Shown: positions 5,118 to 59,231 of the stretch, one piece after another | Numbering within the stretch: position 1 is the first letter of the stretch | Layout: each line of letters begins with the position of its first letter | Source of the DNA: Erythrobacter litoralis | Lineage (GTDB): Bacteria; Pseudomonadota; Alphaproteobacteria; Sphingomonadales; Sphingomonadaceae | Reading direction: 5' to 3' | DNA length: 64,000 bases | Assembly: GCF_001719165.1 (NCBI RefSeq) | Contig: NZ_CP017057.1 | Coordinates: 2,170,001-2,234,000, forward strand | Made by a program: the position numbers and the translations under genes | The notes under the pieces: generated by a model | The model's database searches: none | The model's input: only the letters and a program-made list of their open reading frames with translations | Told to the model about the DNA's origin: nothing

Positions 5118-6236
5118 ATGGACATTACCCGATTGATGCGAGGCAGCGCGCTCTCGGCACTCGCTCTTGCCCTCGCCGCGATCGCCGCACCCGATCCGGC
5201 CGTAGCGGCAAACGCTGTTGCGGACGCATCAGCCTCGGCCGAAATCCAACCGCGCGGAGAGCGCCGTGCGACCCGCAGCGAAGCCCGCTCGCAGCGCCGC
5301 GCAGCCCGTCAGCAAGCACGCAGCCAGCGCCGCGAAGCTCGCCAGCAGGTTCGCCGCGAACGCCCGGCAGTGGTCCGTTCAGGACGCGCCGTGGAGCGGC
5401 GCGAGCGCGCGCAACCCCGCCTCGAACGCTCCGCCCGACCCGCGCGCGAACGATCGGTCAGGACTGCTCGCGAGCGGCCCGACCGGCTCGAACAGCGCGC
5501 AGAGCGCAGCGCTCGGCAGGCCGAACGCCGGCTCGAGCGGCGCGCGGAACGCCTCGAAAGCCGCGCGGATCGCCGCGCGGACCGCGTTGACCGGCGTGGT
5601 GAACGCAGGGCCGACCGGTTCGATCGCCGCGCGGATCGCAGGGAAGATCGCCGTGCGGATCGCAGGGCCGATCGCAGGGAAGATCGCCGCGCGGATCGCA
5701 GGGCCGATCGGCGCAGGGATCGGGGCTTCGACGACCGGATCGCGCGCGGCGTCGGCCGTGCGGACCGTGCCGTCGATCGCCGGGCCGACCGTAGAGCCGA
5801 ACGCAGGGCCGAGCGTCGTCGGGAAATCCGCCGCGACCGGCGGCGCGACTTCAGGCGTGAAATCCGTCGCGAAAGGCGCGACGGCTTCCGCGACGGGGTC
5901 CGGGCCGAGCGGCGTGCGAATTTCCGCCGCTGGGACCGGCGCTGGCGCGACAATGGCCGCTTTGGCTGGCGCGACTATCGGCGCGCGCACCGCCAACACT
6001 TCCGGCTCGGTCGCTATTTCGCCCCTTTCCGCGCGCACCGTTACAGCCGGATCGGGATCGGCTGGCATCTCGACAGCCTGTTCTTCCAGCCGCGCTTCTT
6101 CATCAACGATCCCTGGGCCTTCCGCCTGCCGCCGGCCTACGAACCCTATCGCTGGGTTCGCTATTACGACGACGTGCTGCTGGTCGATGTCTACACCGGT
6201 GAGGTCGTCGACGTGATCTACGATTTCTTCTGGTAG
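5118..6236 (+). CDS. Secreted Arg-rich protein with RcnB-like C-terminal domain
   Basis: 372 aa. ATG 5118 is preceded by GGAGG at 5108-5112. A signal peptide (hydrophobic ~10-30, ending AVAAN) leads into a roughly 240-residue region dominated by Arg, Ala, Asp and Glu in RADRR/REDRR-type short repeats; part of it is an exact 36-bp DNA duplication. The last ~90 residues are aromatic-rich and resemble the RcnB family (periplasmic Ni/Co homeostasis in E. coli): RWVRYYDDVLLVDVYTGEV then a terminal FFW. The Arg-rich linker is far longer than in ordinary RcnB proteins and would be strongly positively charged. Metal function is inference. A strong terminator follows at 6257-6292. Confidence 0.75.
   Translation: MDITRLMRGSALSALALALAAIAAPDPAVAANAVADASASAEIQPRGERRATRSEARSQRRAARQQARSQRREARQQVRRERPAVVRSGRAVERRERAQPRLERSARPARERSVRTARERPDRLEQRAERSARQAERRLERRAERLESRADRRADRVDRRGERRADRFDRRADRREDRRADRRADRREDRRADRRADRRRDRGFDDRIARGVGRADRAVDRRADRRAERRAERRREIRRDRRRDFRREIRRERRDGFRDGVRAERRANFRRWDRRWRDNGRFGWRDYRRAHRQHFRLGRYFAPFRAHRYSRIGIGWHLDSLFFQPRFFINDPWAFRLPPAYEPYRWVRYYDDVLLVDVYTGEVVDVIYDFFW
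5634..5705 (+). repeat. 36-bp direct tandem duplication inside the Arg-rich gene
   Basis: Two adjacent copies (5634-5669 and 5670-5705) differ at one base. They are in frame and each encodes the 12-residue unit DRREDRRADRRA. This shows the Arg-rich region has grown by in-frame tandem duplication. Confidence 0.85.
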
Positions 6237-54261: not shown

Positions 54262-54652
54262 GGGCTCTTCGCTCGAACTCACCGCCTATGCCCGCTCGCT
54301 CGGCATCGAGGTCGAGCGCGAGGAGGACGGCCTCCCGGTGCTCGCGGTGGATTTCGGCCGCAATGTCGAGGGGCGGCCGGGCCATTTCCATGGCGGGGCG
54401 ACGGCGGGCCTGCTCGAGACGGCGGGCTATGCCGCGCTGCGCACCCGGCTGTTGGCCGAAGGGCGCGAGCCGCAATTGAAACCGATCAACATCACCGTGC
54501 AATACCTCTCCGCCGGACGGCAGAAACGCACCTTTGCGCTCGCCCGGATCACGCGGCTCGGCCGGCGCAATGCCAACCTGACGGTCGAGGCGTGGCAGGA
54601 CGACCGCACCCGCCCGATCGCAAGCGCGGTCATGAACATCCTGATGGCCTAG
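54254..54652 (+). CDS. PaaI-family hotdog thioesterase (second of a pair)
   Basis: 132 aa from ATG 54254, overlapping the first thioesterase gene. The motif GHFHGGATAGLLETAGYAAL keeps the HGG loop that the first copy has lost, and INITVQYLSAGRQ forms the next strand. Tandem, diverged hotdog genes like these may give a hetero-oligomer (inference). Overlaps the convergent PBP gene by 4 bp. Confidence 0.87.
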   Translation: MTEGSSLELTAYARSLGIEVEREEDGLPVLAVDFGRNVEGRPGHFHGGATAGLLETAGYAALRTRLLAEGREPQLKPINITVQYLSAGRQKRTFALARITRLGRRNANLTVEAWQDDRTRPIASAVMNILMA

Positions 54653-56832
54653 TTCGGCGGGTCCGCGCCTGCGGGGACGACCTCCAGCCCGTCCTCGCGC
54701 AGGCGAAATTCGACCGGGGCGCCGTCGATCTCGGTCGTGACCGTGACCGCGCCTTCCTCGATCCTGAGCGTCGAGCCGTTCTCGTCGAGCGGGATTTCGG
54801 CGCCCTCGGGCACGTCGAAGGGCTGGACCGGGCCTTCGGGATCGGGCGAGGCGGTGGGCACGGGCGCCGGGGCCGGCCCGCCAAGGCGCAGCGCGCCGCG
54901 CATGAAATCCTTCCAGATGCGCGCCGGCAGGCTCCCGCCCGTGACACCGGCAAGCGGCGAATTGTCGTCATTACCGATCCACACGCCCACCACCAGCCGG
55001 TTCTCGCCCTCCCCGGCATAGCCCACGAACAGCGCGTCGCGGTAATCCTGCGTCGTCCCGGTCTTGCCGTAATTGGCGACCGGCAGCATCGCCGCGCGCC
55101 CCGTGCCGCGATTGACGGCCGCGCGCAGCATCCGCTCGATCGCCTCGTGGTGGCGGCTCGAAAGGCTGTCCTCGCGCGTGGTCAGCCAGTCGAACCAGCC
55201 CTTCTCCTCGCGCTCGAACGCGCGCGGAGTGACCGGAAAGGCATTGCCCGCGACGCCCGCATAGGAGGCGGTGAGCTCGATCAGCGTCATGGTCGAGGTG
55301 CCGAGCGCGAGGCTCGGATCGCCTTCCGGCATTGCGGAGGCGACGCCCAGATCGCGCGCCATGCGGATCACCCGCTTTGAACCGACCTCGTTCATCAGCC
55401 GCACGGCGGCGACATTGCTCGACGAAGCGAGCGCCTGTTCAAGCGTGATCGTGTCCGAATAGTTCTCGCGCGCATTTTTCGGCTGATAGGACCCGCTTTC
55501 GAACGGCGTGTTGGCTATCGTGTCCTCCGGCTCCCACCCGGCGTCGAGCGCGGCGAGATAGACGAACAGCTTGAAGGTCGATCCCGGCTGGCGGCGGGCC
55601 TGCGTCGCCCGGTTGAAGGGCGAGGTCGCGTAATCCCTGCCGCCGACCATCGCGACCACCTCTCCGGTGGGCCGCATCGCGACCAGCGCGACCTGCGCAG
55701 TTCCCAGCGGCGCGCGCGCCACCACCCGGCTCGCCAGCGCCTGCAGGCGCGAATCGAGCGTGGTCGTGAGCACCTGCCTCGAATAGCTCGCCTCCATCCC
55801 CTCGCGCGCGATGGGAAGCGCCCAGTCGGCGAAATAGGTCCCCGTCGGAAGATCGTTGCGCGTGCGCACGTCGAGCCGGGGCGCGGGCAGCGCCGCGGCC
55901 TCTCCGGGCGTGAGATACCCCTCCTCCACCATCGCCGCGACGACGAGATCCATGCGCGCCTTCGCCCGGTCGTAATGCCGGGTCGGCGCATAGGCGGATG
56001 GCGCCTGGAGCAACCCGGCCAGCATCGCGGCCTGTTCGGGCTTCAGGTTTTCGGGCTGGCGGTAGAAATAGTGCAAGGAAGCCGCGCGAAGCCCGTACTG
56101 GTTGTCGCCGAAATAGGCGTTCGACAGGTAGCGTTCGAGGATCTCGTCCTTGGTCAGCCACGCCTCCAGCCACAGCGCGATCATCGCCTCGCGGGCCTTG
56201 CGGGTCAGGGTCTGTTCGGGCGTGAGGAAGGTGAACTTGGCCAGCTGCTGGGTGATGGTCGAACCACCGCCCCGCCCGGTCCATGCGGCGCGCGCGATAC
56301 CGCGCGGGTCGATCCCCCAATGCGAATAGAACCGCCGGTCCTCGATCGCCATGAAGGCCTGCGGAACGTGCGGCGGAAGCTTGGCGATCTCGACCGGCTC
56401 CGCCACCATCGCCCCGGAACGCGCGATCGGCGTCCCGTCGCTGGCGAGCAGCGTAACCTGCGGGGCGGCGATGGGCTCGAGGCTTTTCGAAAGCGGCGCC
56501 GTGACGGCGAGCCAGCCGATCAGCGCGAAGAAGGCGAGCAGCGCGGCGGCAATGCCCCGCACCGTCCACCACAGCTTGCCGCGAGAGCGCCAGTATTCGC
56601 GCTGCCACCACCTGAGGCGGCGGCGTTCCTCGATTTCGACCGCATCGTCGAGCCGGGCGAGACTTTCGTCCCACTTGGCGTAATCGGGGGCGGGAGCGGC
56701 GCGCGAGGGCGCATCCTCGTCGTCTACCGGGCGCTGCGATTCGTAGAGCGGGAAATAGCCGGGAGCGTCGGAATCAGCGCTACCGCGCGAATGCGCGCGC
56801 GCGCTCCTGCGGAATCGCTCGAAGAGGCCCAT
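54649..56832 (-). CDS. Class A penicillin-binding protein (PBP1A family transglycosylase/transpeptidase)
   Basis: 727 aa bifunctional peptidoglycan synthase. Cytosolic Arg-rich N terminus and one membrane helix (~90-112). GT51 domain: EDRRFYSHWGID with the catalytic Glu, GGSTITQQLAK, and LSNAYFGDNQYGL. Transpeptidase: SxxK in PGSTFKLFVY, SxN in ASSSNVAAV and KTG in YGKTGTTQD. Short C-terminal beta-like tail after ~650. Start ATG 56832. Upstream lie about 80 bp of ordinary sequence and then a 364-bp tandem repeat, so its promoter must lie near or within the array. Confidence 0.93.
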   Translation of the reverse strand: MGLFERFRRSARAHSRGSADSDAPGYFPLYESQRPVDDEDAPSRAAPAPDYAKWDESLARLDDAVEIEERRRLRWWQREYWRSRGKLWWTVRGIAAALLAFFALIGWLAVTAPLSKSLEPIAAPQVTLLASDGTPIARSGAMVAEPVEIAKLPPHVPQAFMAIEDRRFYSHWGIDPRGIARAAWTGRGGGSTITQQLAKFTFLTPEQTLTRKAREAMIALWLEAWLTKDEILERYLSNAYFGDNQYGLRAASLHYFYRQPENLKPEQAAMLAGLLQAPSAYAPTRHYDRAKARMDLVVAAMVEEGYLTPGEAAALPAPRLDVRTRNDLPTGTYFADWALPIAREGMEASYSRQVLTTTLDSRLQALASRVVARAPLGTAQVALVAMRPTGEVVAMVGGRDYATSPFNRATQARRQPGSTFKLFVYLAALDAGWEPEDTIANTPFESGSYQPKNARENYSDTITLEQALASSSNVAAVRLMNEVGSKRVIRMARDLGVASAMPEGDPSLALGTSTMTLIELTASYAGVAGNAFPVTPRAFEREEKGWFDWLTTREDSLSSRHHEAIERMLRAAVNRGTGRAAMLPVANYGKTGTTQDYRDALFVGYAGEGENRLVVGVWIGNDDNSPLAGVTGGSLPARIWKDFMRGALRLGGPAPAPVPTASPDPEGPVQPFDVPEGAEIPLDENGSTLRIEEGAVTVTTEIDGAPVEFRLREDGLEVVPAGADPPN

Positions 56833-56912
56833 GCGAACTGTATTAACAGGCTAATACGGCGCCCGGCAAGAAGGATCGCAGGAACCGATCAGCGCCCGCC
56901 GATCGGTGTGCG

Positions 56913-57276
56913 CCAATCACCGGCCTCCAATCACTGGCCTCCAATCACTGGCCTCCAATCACTGGCCTCCAATCACTGGCCTCCAATCACTGGCCTCCAA
57001 TCACTGGCCTCCAATCACTGGCCTCCAATCACTGGCCTCCAATCACTGGCCTCCAATCACTGGCCTCCAATCACTGGCCTCCAATCACTGGCCTCCAATC
57101 ACTGGCCTCCAATCACTGGCCTCCAATCACTGGCCTCCAATCACTGGCCTCCAATCACTGGCCTCCAATCACTGGCCTCCAATCACTGGCCTCCAATCAC
57201 TGGCCTCCAATCACTGGCCTCCAATCACTGGCCTCCAATCACTGGCCTCCAATCACTGGCCTCCAATCACTGGCCT
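56913..57276. repeat. Tandem repeat, 14-bp unit x 26 copies
   Basis: Unit CCAATCACTGGCCT on the plus strand (AGGCCAGTGATTGG on the minus), repeated head to tail at exactly 14-bp steps from 56913 to 57276. Copies 2-26 are identical; copy 1 has one change (C for T at 56921). The last copies overlap the 3' end of cobS, whose stop codon (57267-57269) is formed by the repeat. The rest fills the space upstream of the class A PBP gene. On the plus strand all three frames stay open through the array; on the minus strand TGA closes each frame in turn. Confidence 0.98.
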
Positions 57277-58271
57277 ACTGTCACCGTCCCATGCGCCGCG
57301 CCTTCGGGCAGGTCCTCGTTGAAGACGCGCTGGTAATATTCGCTCACCAGCATCCGTTCGGCCTCGTCGCACTTGTTGAGGAAGCTGAGGCGGAATGCGA
57401 AGCCGACCGATTTGAAGATCGCCGCGTTCTGCGCCCAGGTGATGACGGTGCGCGGGCTCATCACGGTCGAGATGTCGCCGTTCATGAAGCCCTGCCGGGT
57501 CAGTTCGGCGACCTTGATCATGTCGGCGATGGCCTTGTCCTCGGTGTCCGGCGTCTTCGACTTGACGATTGCCTGTTCGGTTTCGGCCGGGAGGTAATTG
57601 AGCGCCACCACGATGTTCCAGCGGTCCATCTGCGCCTGGTTGATCGCCTGCGTGCCGTGATAGAGCCCGCTGGTGTCGCCGAGGCCGACCGTGTTGGTCG
57701 TCGCGAACAGGCGGAACCACTTGTTCGGCGTGATGACGCGGTTCTGGTCGAGCAGGGTGAGACGGCCGTCGAATTCGAGCACGCGCTGGATCACGAACAT
57801 CACGTCCGGACGCCCCGCGTCGTATTCGTCGAAGGTCAGCGCGACCGGGTGCTGCAGCGCCCACGGAAGAATGCCTTCCTTGAACTCGGTGACCTGCAGC
57901 CCGTCCTTCAATACGATCGCGTCGCGCCCGACAAGGTCGATGCGGCTGATATGCGCGTCGAGGTTCACGCGCACGCTCGGCCAGTTAAGGCGCGCTGCGA
58001 CCTGTTCGATATGGGTCGATTTGCCCGTCCCGTGATAGCCCTGCACCATCACCCGCCGATTGTGCGCGAAGCCTGCGAGGATCGCGAGCGTCGTGTCCGG
58101 GTCGAACACGTAATCCCTGTCGAGCTCGGGCACGTGTTCGTCATTGGCGGAGAAGGCAGGGACCTGCCAGTCGACATCGATGCCGAACGTGTCCTTCACG
58201 TCGATGGTCGTGTCGGGCTGGGAGGGCATGGCTTCCTTGCCGGCGAATTCTTCTGAGGAATGGCTGTTCAT
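57267..58271 (-). CDS. cobS: Cobaltochelatase subunit CobS (AAA+ ATPase)
   Basis: MoxR-like AAA+ subunit of aerobic cobaltochelatase (CobNST). 334 aa. Walker [10 protein letters not shown] at 78-86; Walker B in [17 protein letters not shown]; sensor [23 protein letters not shown]. The last residues (about VTVGQ) and stop are encoded by sequence continuous with the tandem repeat, so the natural C terminus may have been altered. cobT, usually directly downstream, is absent here; cobN is not in the window. J-domain and bolA genes, common neighbours in Alphaproteobacteria, are 1.6-2.3 kb away. Confidence 0.94.
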
Positions 58272-58397
58272 CGCAAGGCCCGGTTAAAGGGCCTCGGCTA
58301 AAGCTGCAAGCCGCTCGGCCCTGCTAAATTTGCAAGTGCGCGCGGACGACGGCGAAGATGCTCGCAAATCGCGCCGACACGCATTACTTTGACACGC

Positions 58398-59231
58398 ATG
58401 GCGGACCCGCTCGAAACCCTGCGCCTGCGCCTTGTCGGGCAGGTGCGCGATCTCTTCAACGAGACCGGCCAGCAGCCCGTTCCGCCCTCCGACGAGGCGC
58501 TGTTCGCGCGCGATACGCCGATCCGCATGGTGCATGCCGATATCGTGGGCATGATGACCGGCGGGATCCGGGGGCTTTTGTTGCAGATGCTGCACCCGGC
58601 GGCGCTGCAGGGCGTGCTCGACCATTCCAATTTCCGCGCCGACATGCACGGCCGCCTGCGCCGCACCGCGCGCTTCATCGCCGTGACGACCTTCGGCCAC
58701 CGCGACGAGGCCATGAAGGCGATCGACCGCGTCAACCGCATCCACGCGAAGGTCGGCGGGACGCTGCCGGGGGGCGAACCCTATACCGCCGCCGATCCGC
58801 GCACGCTCGCCTGGGTCCACGTGGTCGAGGCGCAGAGCTTTCTTGCCGGGTACCTGCGCCATGTCCGGCCCGAAATGCCCTATGCCGAACAGGACGAATA
58901 TTATCGCCAGTTCGCGATCATCGCACGCGCCCTGGGCGCCGATCCCGTGCCCGAAAGCCGGCGCGAGGCCGAGGCGATCTTTCGCGAATTGCGGGCCGAT
59001 TTGAAAACGTCGCCCGAAGCGCGCGAAGTCGCCCAGCTCGTTCTCACATCCAGGCCCGAAGGCACGCCGCAGGCGCTCCAGGCCGTGGTCGCGGCCGAGG
59101 CGGTGGCGATGGTGCCAGACTGGGCGCGTTCGATGCTGCGGATCCAGCGCCCAGTCCTTACCGCGCTGCCCGCACGCGCGGCGACGTGGGGCGTTGGGCG
59201 GACGCTGCGCTGGGCCTTTCGCCAGACCTGA
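58398..59231 (+). CDS. Oxygenase MpaB-family protein (DUF2236)
   Basis: 277 aa from ATG 58398 (a TTG three codons earlier also opens the frame). Helical protein of the MpaB/latex-clearing family: ADIVGMMTGGIRGLLLQMLHPAALQGVLDHS, an RRTARFIAVTTFG segment, and WVHVVEAQSFLAGYLR with the conserved His and Glu. Family members are heme-b oxygenases such as rubber oxygenase; a proximal His is present in each motif, but the substrate here is not known. Divergent from cobS. Confidence 0.83.
   Translation: MADPLETLRLRLVGQVRDLFNETGQQPVPPSDEALFARDTPIRMVHADIVGMMTGGIRGLLLQMLHPAALQGVLDHSNFRADMHGRLRRTARFIAVTTFGHRDEAMKAIDRVNRIHAKVGGTLPGGEPYTAADPRTLAWVHVVEAQSFLAGYLRHVRPEMPYAEQDEYYRQFAIIARALGADPVPESRREAEAIFRELRADLKTSPEAREVAQLVLTSRPEGTPQALQAVVAAEAVAMVPDWARSMLRIQRPVLTALPARAATWGVGRTLRWAFRQT

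Follow-up and report, generated by a model that had tools for sequence, protein, structure and literature searches.

A 14-bp minisatellite between cobS and a penicillin-binding protein gene in Erythrobacter litoralis: a likely case of recent, neutral expansion

Introduction

Bacterial minisatellites are runs of near-identical units of about 10–100 bp arranged head to tail, and at minisatellite and VNTR loci such units typically lie between genes and are specific to one lineage. In the phase-variation systems of Haemophilus influenzae hmwA and Neisseria meningitidis nadA, the repeats sit within or near the core promoter. MIRU-type repeats, in which homologous units are dispersed over many loci, sometimes carry the stop or start codons of neighbouring genes, and in CRISPR arrays the repeats are separated by unique spacers.

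MIRUs of 40–100 bp are found in 41 places in H37Rv, according to the part of the published account drawn on here (PMC2734929). The same part describes what is, among the systems we found, the nearest studied parallel to the array reported below: the rnc–fpg1 gap of the Mycobacterium tuberculosis complex (ETR-F or VNTR3239), which measures 279–358 bp as against 6–54 bp in the other species tabulated (PMC2734929). Its units are compound (55 and 79 bp), and both variation between isolates and a correlation with fpg1 mRNA were measured, longer repeats going with higher fpg1 mRNA, as far as that part of the source reports (PMC2734929).

The array described here lies at the boundary between cobS, encoding a cobaltochelatase subunit, and the gene for a class A penicillin-binding protein (PBP) in Erythrobacter litoralis. 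With 26 near-identical units of 14 bp it is a bacterial minisatellite, and it resembles known minisatellites and VNTR loci in its perfect head-to-tail units between genes, its restriction to one lineage and the near-identity of its copies; it differs from both in that the unit array was found at a single locus in one genome and in none of the other genomes searched. It shares with the rnc–fpg1 region, as described in the part of the account cited above, a repeat-filled gap in one lineage between flanking genes on the same strand, whereas here the unit measures 14 bp and the gene is set apart from the array by a conserved promoter-like element. Like MIRUs it is a repeat between genes, and like some of them it carries a neighbour's stop codon, but its units are arrayed at one place only and are not dispersed. 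It is purely tandem, with no spacers of the CRISPR kind. As at hmwA and nadA, a tandem repeat lies upstream of an envelope-related gene; here, however, the predicted promoter and the PBP start codon both lie outside the array, which ends 43 bp above the predicted -35 box, and the spacer between the promoter boxes is 18 bp both here and in 25 of 28 relatives. A literature search, judged by titles, found no work about an array at the cobS–PBP locus.

Structure and setting of the array

The features discussed below are collected in Table 1; positions are those of the window, the whole 64,000-nucleotide stretch of DNA that was analysed.

Table 1. Features at the cobS–PBP boundary
Feature	Position	Strand	Description
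Class A penicillin-binding protein (PBP) gene	54649-56832	-	727 aa; transglycosylase and transpeptidase domains
Predicted PBP promoter	56840-56869	-	-35 TTGCCG at 56869-56864, spacer 18, extended -10 TGT-TAATAC at 56845-56840; from conservation
Two degenerate 14-mers in register	56885-56912	.	CCGATCAGCGCCCG, 9/14, and CCGATCGGTGTGCG, 8/14 matches to the unit
Minisatellite array	56913-57276	.	26 tandem copies of CCAATCACTGGCCT; minus-strand form AGGCCAGTGATTGG
cobS	57267-58271	-	cobaltochelatase subunit CobS, 334 aa; CobS_N and AAA_5 domains

The original prediction described 26 head-to-tail copies with one base difference in the outermost copy and an array end about 80 bp from the start of the PBP gene, and both descriptions hold. 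A pattern search of the organism's own genome counts 25 perfect copies and one with a single change, CCAATCACCGGCCT, at the PBP-side end of the array (56913-56926), and the distance from the array to the PBP ATG at 56832 is 80 bp. TRF (period 14, 26.0 copies, 99% matches) gives the array a score of 721. This is far above background, the next-best tandem array scoring 200 in a sample of twenty 20-kb stretches (400 kb) from this genome and the best other array in the window scoring 150; over the 464 kb that the window and this sample make up, no other array has a comparable score. Elsewhere in the window, TRF also reports a cluster of degenerate 12-, 24-, 33- and 36-bp repeats around GATCGCAGGG (5483-5722).

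When the unit was sought elsewhere, as had been proposed, all 26 copies with at most one mismatch proved to lie at this single locus in the 3.25-Mb genome. With two mismatches allowed, nine further matches were found, each standing alone, a number at the background level set by a reversed control pattern, which gives 11. It had also been pointed out that three units make 42 bp, or four helical turns; the arithmetic is correct, and nothing was found that would give it a role.

cobS and the PBP gene are both encoded on the minus strand, cobS being first and the PBP gene second. GC skew is positive in nine of the first ten sampled stretches and negative in all ten that remain, a pattern which suggests that transcription of both genes runs with the replication fork.

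The end of CobS

The cobS stop codon, a TGA at 57267-57269, had been placed in the last copies of the array. It does lie inside the array, in one copy only: the cobS-proximal one, which is the first to be met by the ribosome. Gain or loss of copies farther along would therefore leave the stop in place. The final 14 residues of the protein include a tail five residues longer than is usual. Among the best 120 of 3576 protein matches (E-value limit 1e-150; the protein of the window is one of them), 118 of the 119 other proteins have the usual short end, defined as nine residues from the leucine in the LPE region (113 scored by script and five by eye, the LPE letters varying), the remaining one ends two residues earlier, and none has a longer tail. 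At the locus itself the tail is of nine residues in 28 of 29 genus relatives and of ten in the other (L038). A TGA at the relatives' stop position is present in the window one base out of frame, so that translation continues until the TGA inside the first repeat is reached. The ending of CobS five residues late at this codon is the sole demonstrable consequence of the array.

One protein entry (P0003) is 100% identical to the window CobS, tail included, and is listed from a contig of at most 53,155 bases. The first copy at least may therefore be present in another assembly, conceivably a previous draft of this strain's genome.

Distribution among relatives

cobS is present in all 61 genomes compared, including that of E. 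litoralis itself, although in one (G017) only in pieces; the collections compared hold one genome per species. The nearest named CobS-bearing relatives found are Erythrobacter, Porphyrobacter and near kin. Among 36 further genomes from the genus, the locus was read in 29, and the PBP gene follows cobS in 28 of these, the stretch from the last (L039) containing no PBP match. In 20 of the 28 the gap between the genes is short, measuring 40–73 bp in the 16 in which it was measured; the other four (L037, L050, L059 and L060), in which the protein match starts late, were judged by eye. Other DNA occupies the gap in the remaining eight, where it is 537–913 bp long, and the gap thus seems tolerant of inserts. 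Two of these gaps (L034 and L053) contain ORFs of 277 and 238 aa that by eye have the look of the TonB C-terminal type; the ORFs in two others (L036 and L045) are different from these.

No array of at least three copies was detected by TRF at any of the 29 genus loci, and a two-unit pattern with up to three mismatches is absent from 113 other genus genomes and 396 other family genomes, sets that overlap, the family set having been drawn from a larger group. The exact 28-mer is likewise absent from genome_contigs and from viral contigs, collections that perhaps do not include the organism's own or a very near genome. A blastn comparison of the array and both short flanks with plasmids gave no match, though the BLAST repeat filter may have masked the array. 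The absence of the 28-mer from viral contigs and of a plasmid match led us to set aside a mobile origin.

Origin and probable history of the array

The idea that the expansion is recent is supported by the near-perfect units, the single locus and the absence of the array from the relatives searched. Possible traces of its beginnings are seen at the edges. On the PBP side, two degenerate 14-mers continue the register of the array (Table 1); a consecutive pair as good as this is found at 1.6e-5 of other window positions, by thresholds set after the values had been seen. On the cobS side, the next 14-mer has 8/14 matches, a level reached by 1% of window positions. The degenerate 14-mers may be older, decayed units or the seed of the array, and such flanking matches suggest growth in place. 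The sequence between the array and the PBP promoter includes an inverted repeat of 24 nt (56884-56907; stem of 10 bp), and since the PBP-side pair also forms this inverted repeat, its likeness to the unit may be accidental, making it weaker evidence of origin.

We consider it likely that the array is a recent, local and lineage-specific minisatellite that arose by a probably neutral slippage expansion at the cobS–PBP boundary, and that it is not a control device. On this reading, slippage during replication or unequal recombination would have multiplied a 14-bp stretch at the boundary to about 26 copies, too recently for differences between the copies to have built up. The array sits between almost the whole of cobS and a predicted PBP promoter that is conserved and intact, and CobS, in which the usual stop is out of frame, ends instead at the TGA supplied by the first repeat. 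Copy number would be expected to have little or no effect on either gene, and the array is probably neutral. It may also be unstable in copy number, which makes it a VNTR candidate, and it would serve as a marker for strain typing if copy number does vary. On this reading the locus offers a clean case of the birth of a bacterial minisatellite, with a possible decayed edge, relatives that lack the array and a side effect on the end of CobS, as well as an illustration that repeats can lie near a start codon and still leave the promoter untouched.

Folding of the array

A functional role for the array might be sought in the RNA, as an element of the cobS transcript whose rod-like fold protects the 3' end of the mRNA or limits read-through into the PBP gene. 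The minus-strand RNA (56833-57290) folds at -230 kcal/mol, mostly as one rod, with a z score of -12.9 against 100 dinucleotide shuffles, none of which folds as well. Moreover, 26 units of the minus (mRNA) strand fold much better than those of the plus strand (-191.5 against -101.6 kcal/mol), and no consensus terminator was found nearby. Dinucleotide shuffles, however, destroy the repetition, and a second null was therefore built from letter-permuted 14-mers in 26 tandem copies. On the mRNA strand 28 of 300 such arrays equal or surpass the real one in folding, which gives no notable sign of selection on the unit for pairing, and as single-stranded DNA the permuted units fold as well in 52% of cases for the minus strand and 57% for the plus strand. 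The fold of the array is largely a by-product of repetition with little bearing on selection, and RNA structure was dropped as a sign of function once a null that keeps the tandem repetition removed the signal. The GGCC that recurs every 14 bp can, as originally predicted, pair with its neighbours on paper, but permuted units often enough fold as well (28 of 300), and nothing was found that would give this spacing a role.

Given also that the array is absent from the 29 genus relatives read, we regard a functional RNA element as unlikely. More specifically, a rod of adjustable length might decouple cobS from the PBP gene, the number of copies setting the lifetime or read-through of the cobS mRNA whilst the PBP promoter acts independently; this we hold to be very doubtful. 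A search of Rfam with positions 56000-58500 gave only one match, below threshold (20.9 bits, with 59 as the gathering score), and this lies outside the array at 58090-58204.

The predicted PBP promoter

The array was originally said to fill the region upstream of the PBP gene, such that copy number could change the PBP leader or the promoter distance. The first statement is misleading, as the 80 bp next to the gene are free of the array and contain a predicted promoter, and the second finds no support, the promoter being conserved and lying between array and gene. Its -10 box is 7 bp from the PBP ATG, and the -35 box 43 bp from the array edge. The shared box was first noticed by eye in the gaps and then scanned for by script: CTGNTAAYAC adjoins the PBP start in 26 of the 28 genus relatives that have the PBP gene in the locus, and both boxes (TTG-N18-TAAYAC at the PBP ATG) are present in 25, in none of which was the array seen. 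The exceptions are L050, which lacks the TTG, and L059 and L060, which have TAACAC without the preceding CTG. Among 80 named loci, 13 have a PBP match and six of the 13 the motif, which is absent from the other seven (L077–L083, mostly of Qipengyuania type). Judged by length, three named loci (L074, L075 and L077) seem to duplicate the contigs of L054, L055 and L059, and the counts of 26 and 25 are therefore for the genus set only. In the organism's own genome the promoter motif with its upstream arm occurs once.

A scan of positions 56600-58400 with the plain sigma-70 consensus flagged no promoter-like site, neither the predicted boxes nor anything in the array interior, and the promoter claim thus rests on conservation, from which we infer that the boxes are the PBP promoter in use. 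With the -10 box so near the ATG, transcription is predicted to start at or next to the start codon, and on this geometry the PBP mRNA is probably leaderless. If the predicted promoter is used, both the PBP leader and the spacing of the -35 and -10 boxes are independent of copy number.

These observations bear directly on the idea that copy number tunes the PBP gene, whether through promoter spacing, the leader or the number of upstream protein-binding sites. The array does end just 80 bp from the ATG, the consensus scan flagged no promoter in those 80 bp, and the rnc–fpg1 correlation, as given in the part of the account cited above (PMC2734929), leaves room for an influence that does not require the array to overlap the promoter. 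Such an influence on the PBP gene might be exerted through distant upstream sites or through read-through. Against this, the conserved boxes should keep leader and spacing fixed, the array interior has no promoter-like match, and the relatives with the shortest gaps have cobS coding sequence at the position of the array: with the PBP ATG lying just 40 bp past the end of cobS in L044 and L046, nearly all the sequence above their -35 box belongs to the cobS reading frame. Tuning of the PBP gene by copy number is, we think, quite improbable.

In some species an inverted repeat, GTGTTA-N6-TAACAC, surrounds the promoter, the window version being GTATTA-N6-TAATAC; it could be an operator.

Candidates set aside

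Perfect tandem repeats are a classic site of assembly error, and the recorded copy number might in principle be inflated or wrong, but the genome is assembled as a single 3.25-Mb contig, 364 bp is little beside the usual length of long reads and the identical CobS with its tail is listed from a different, shorter contig, all of which makes an artefact hardly credible.

The unit has no stop codon on the plus strand, and the array is therefore open there in all frames. A 453-aa ORF that spans the array (55975-57336) runs antisense to the PBP gene and matches no Pfam family; we treated it as spurious. A search for relatives of the read-through peptide (7985 candidates scored) gave two weak matches, P0001 and P0002. 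The second (source ena; two contigs, the longest of 1,096 bases) has different flanks and was by judgement treated as a chance match; by eye, it seems to include a small number of 14-bp units, one base different from the unit described here.
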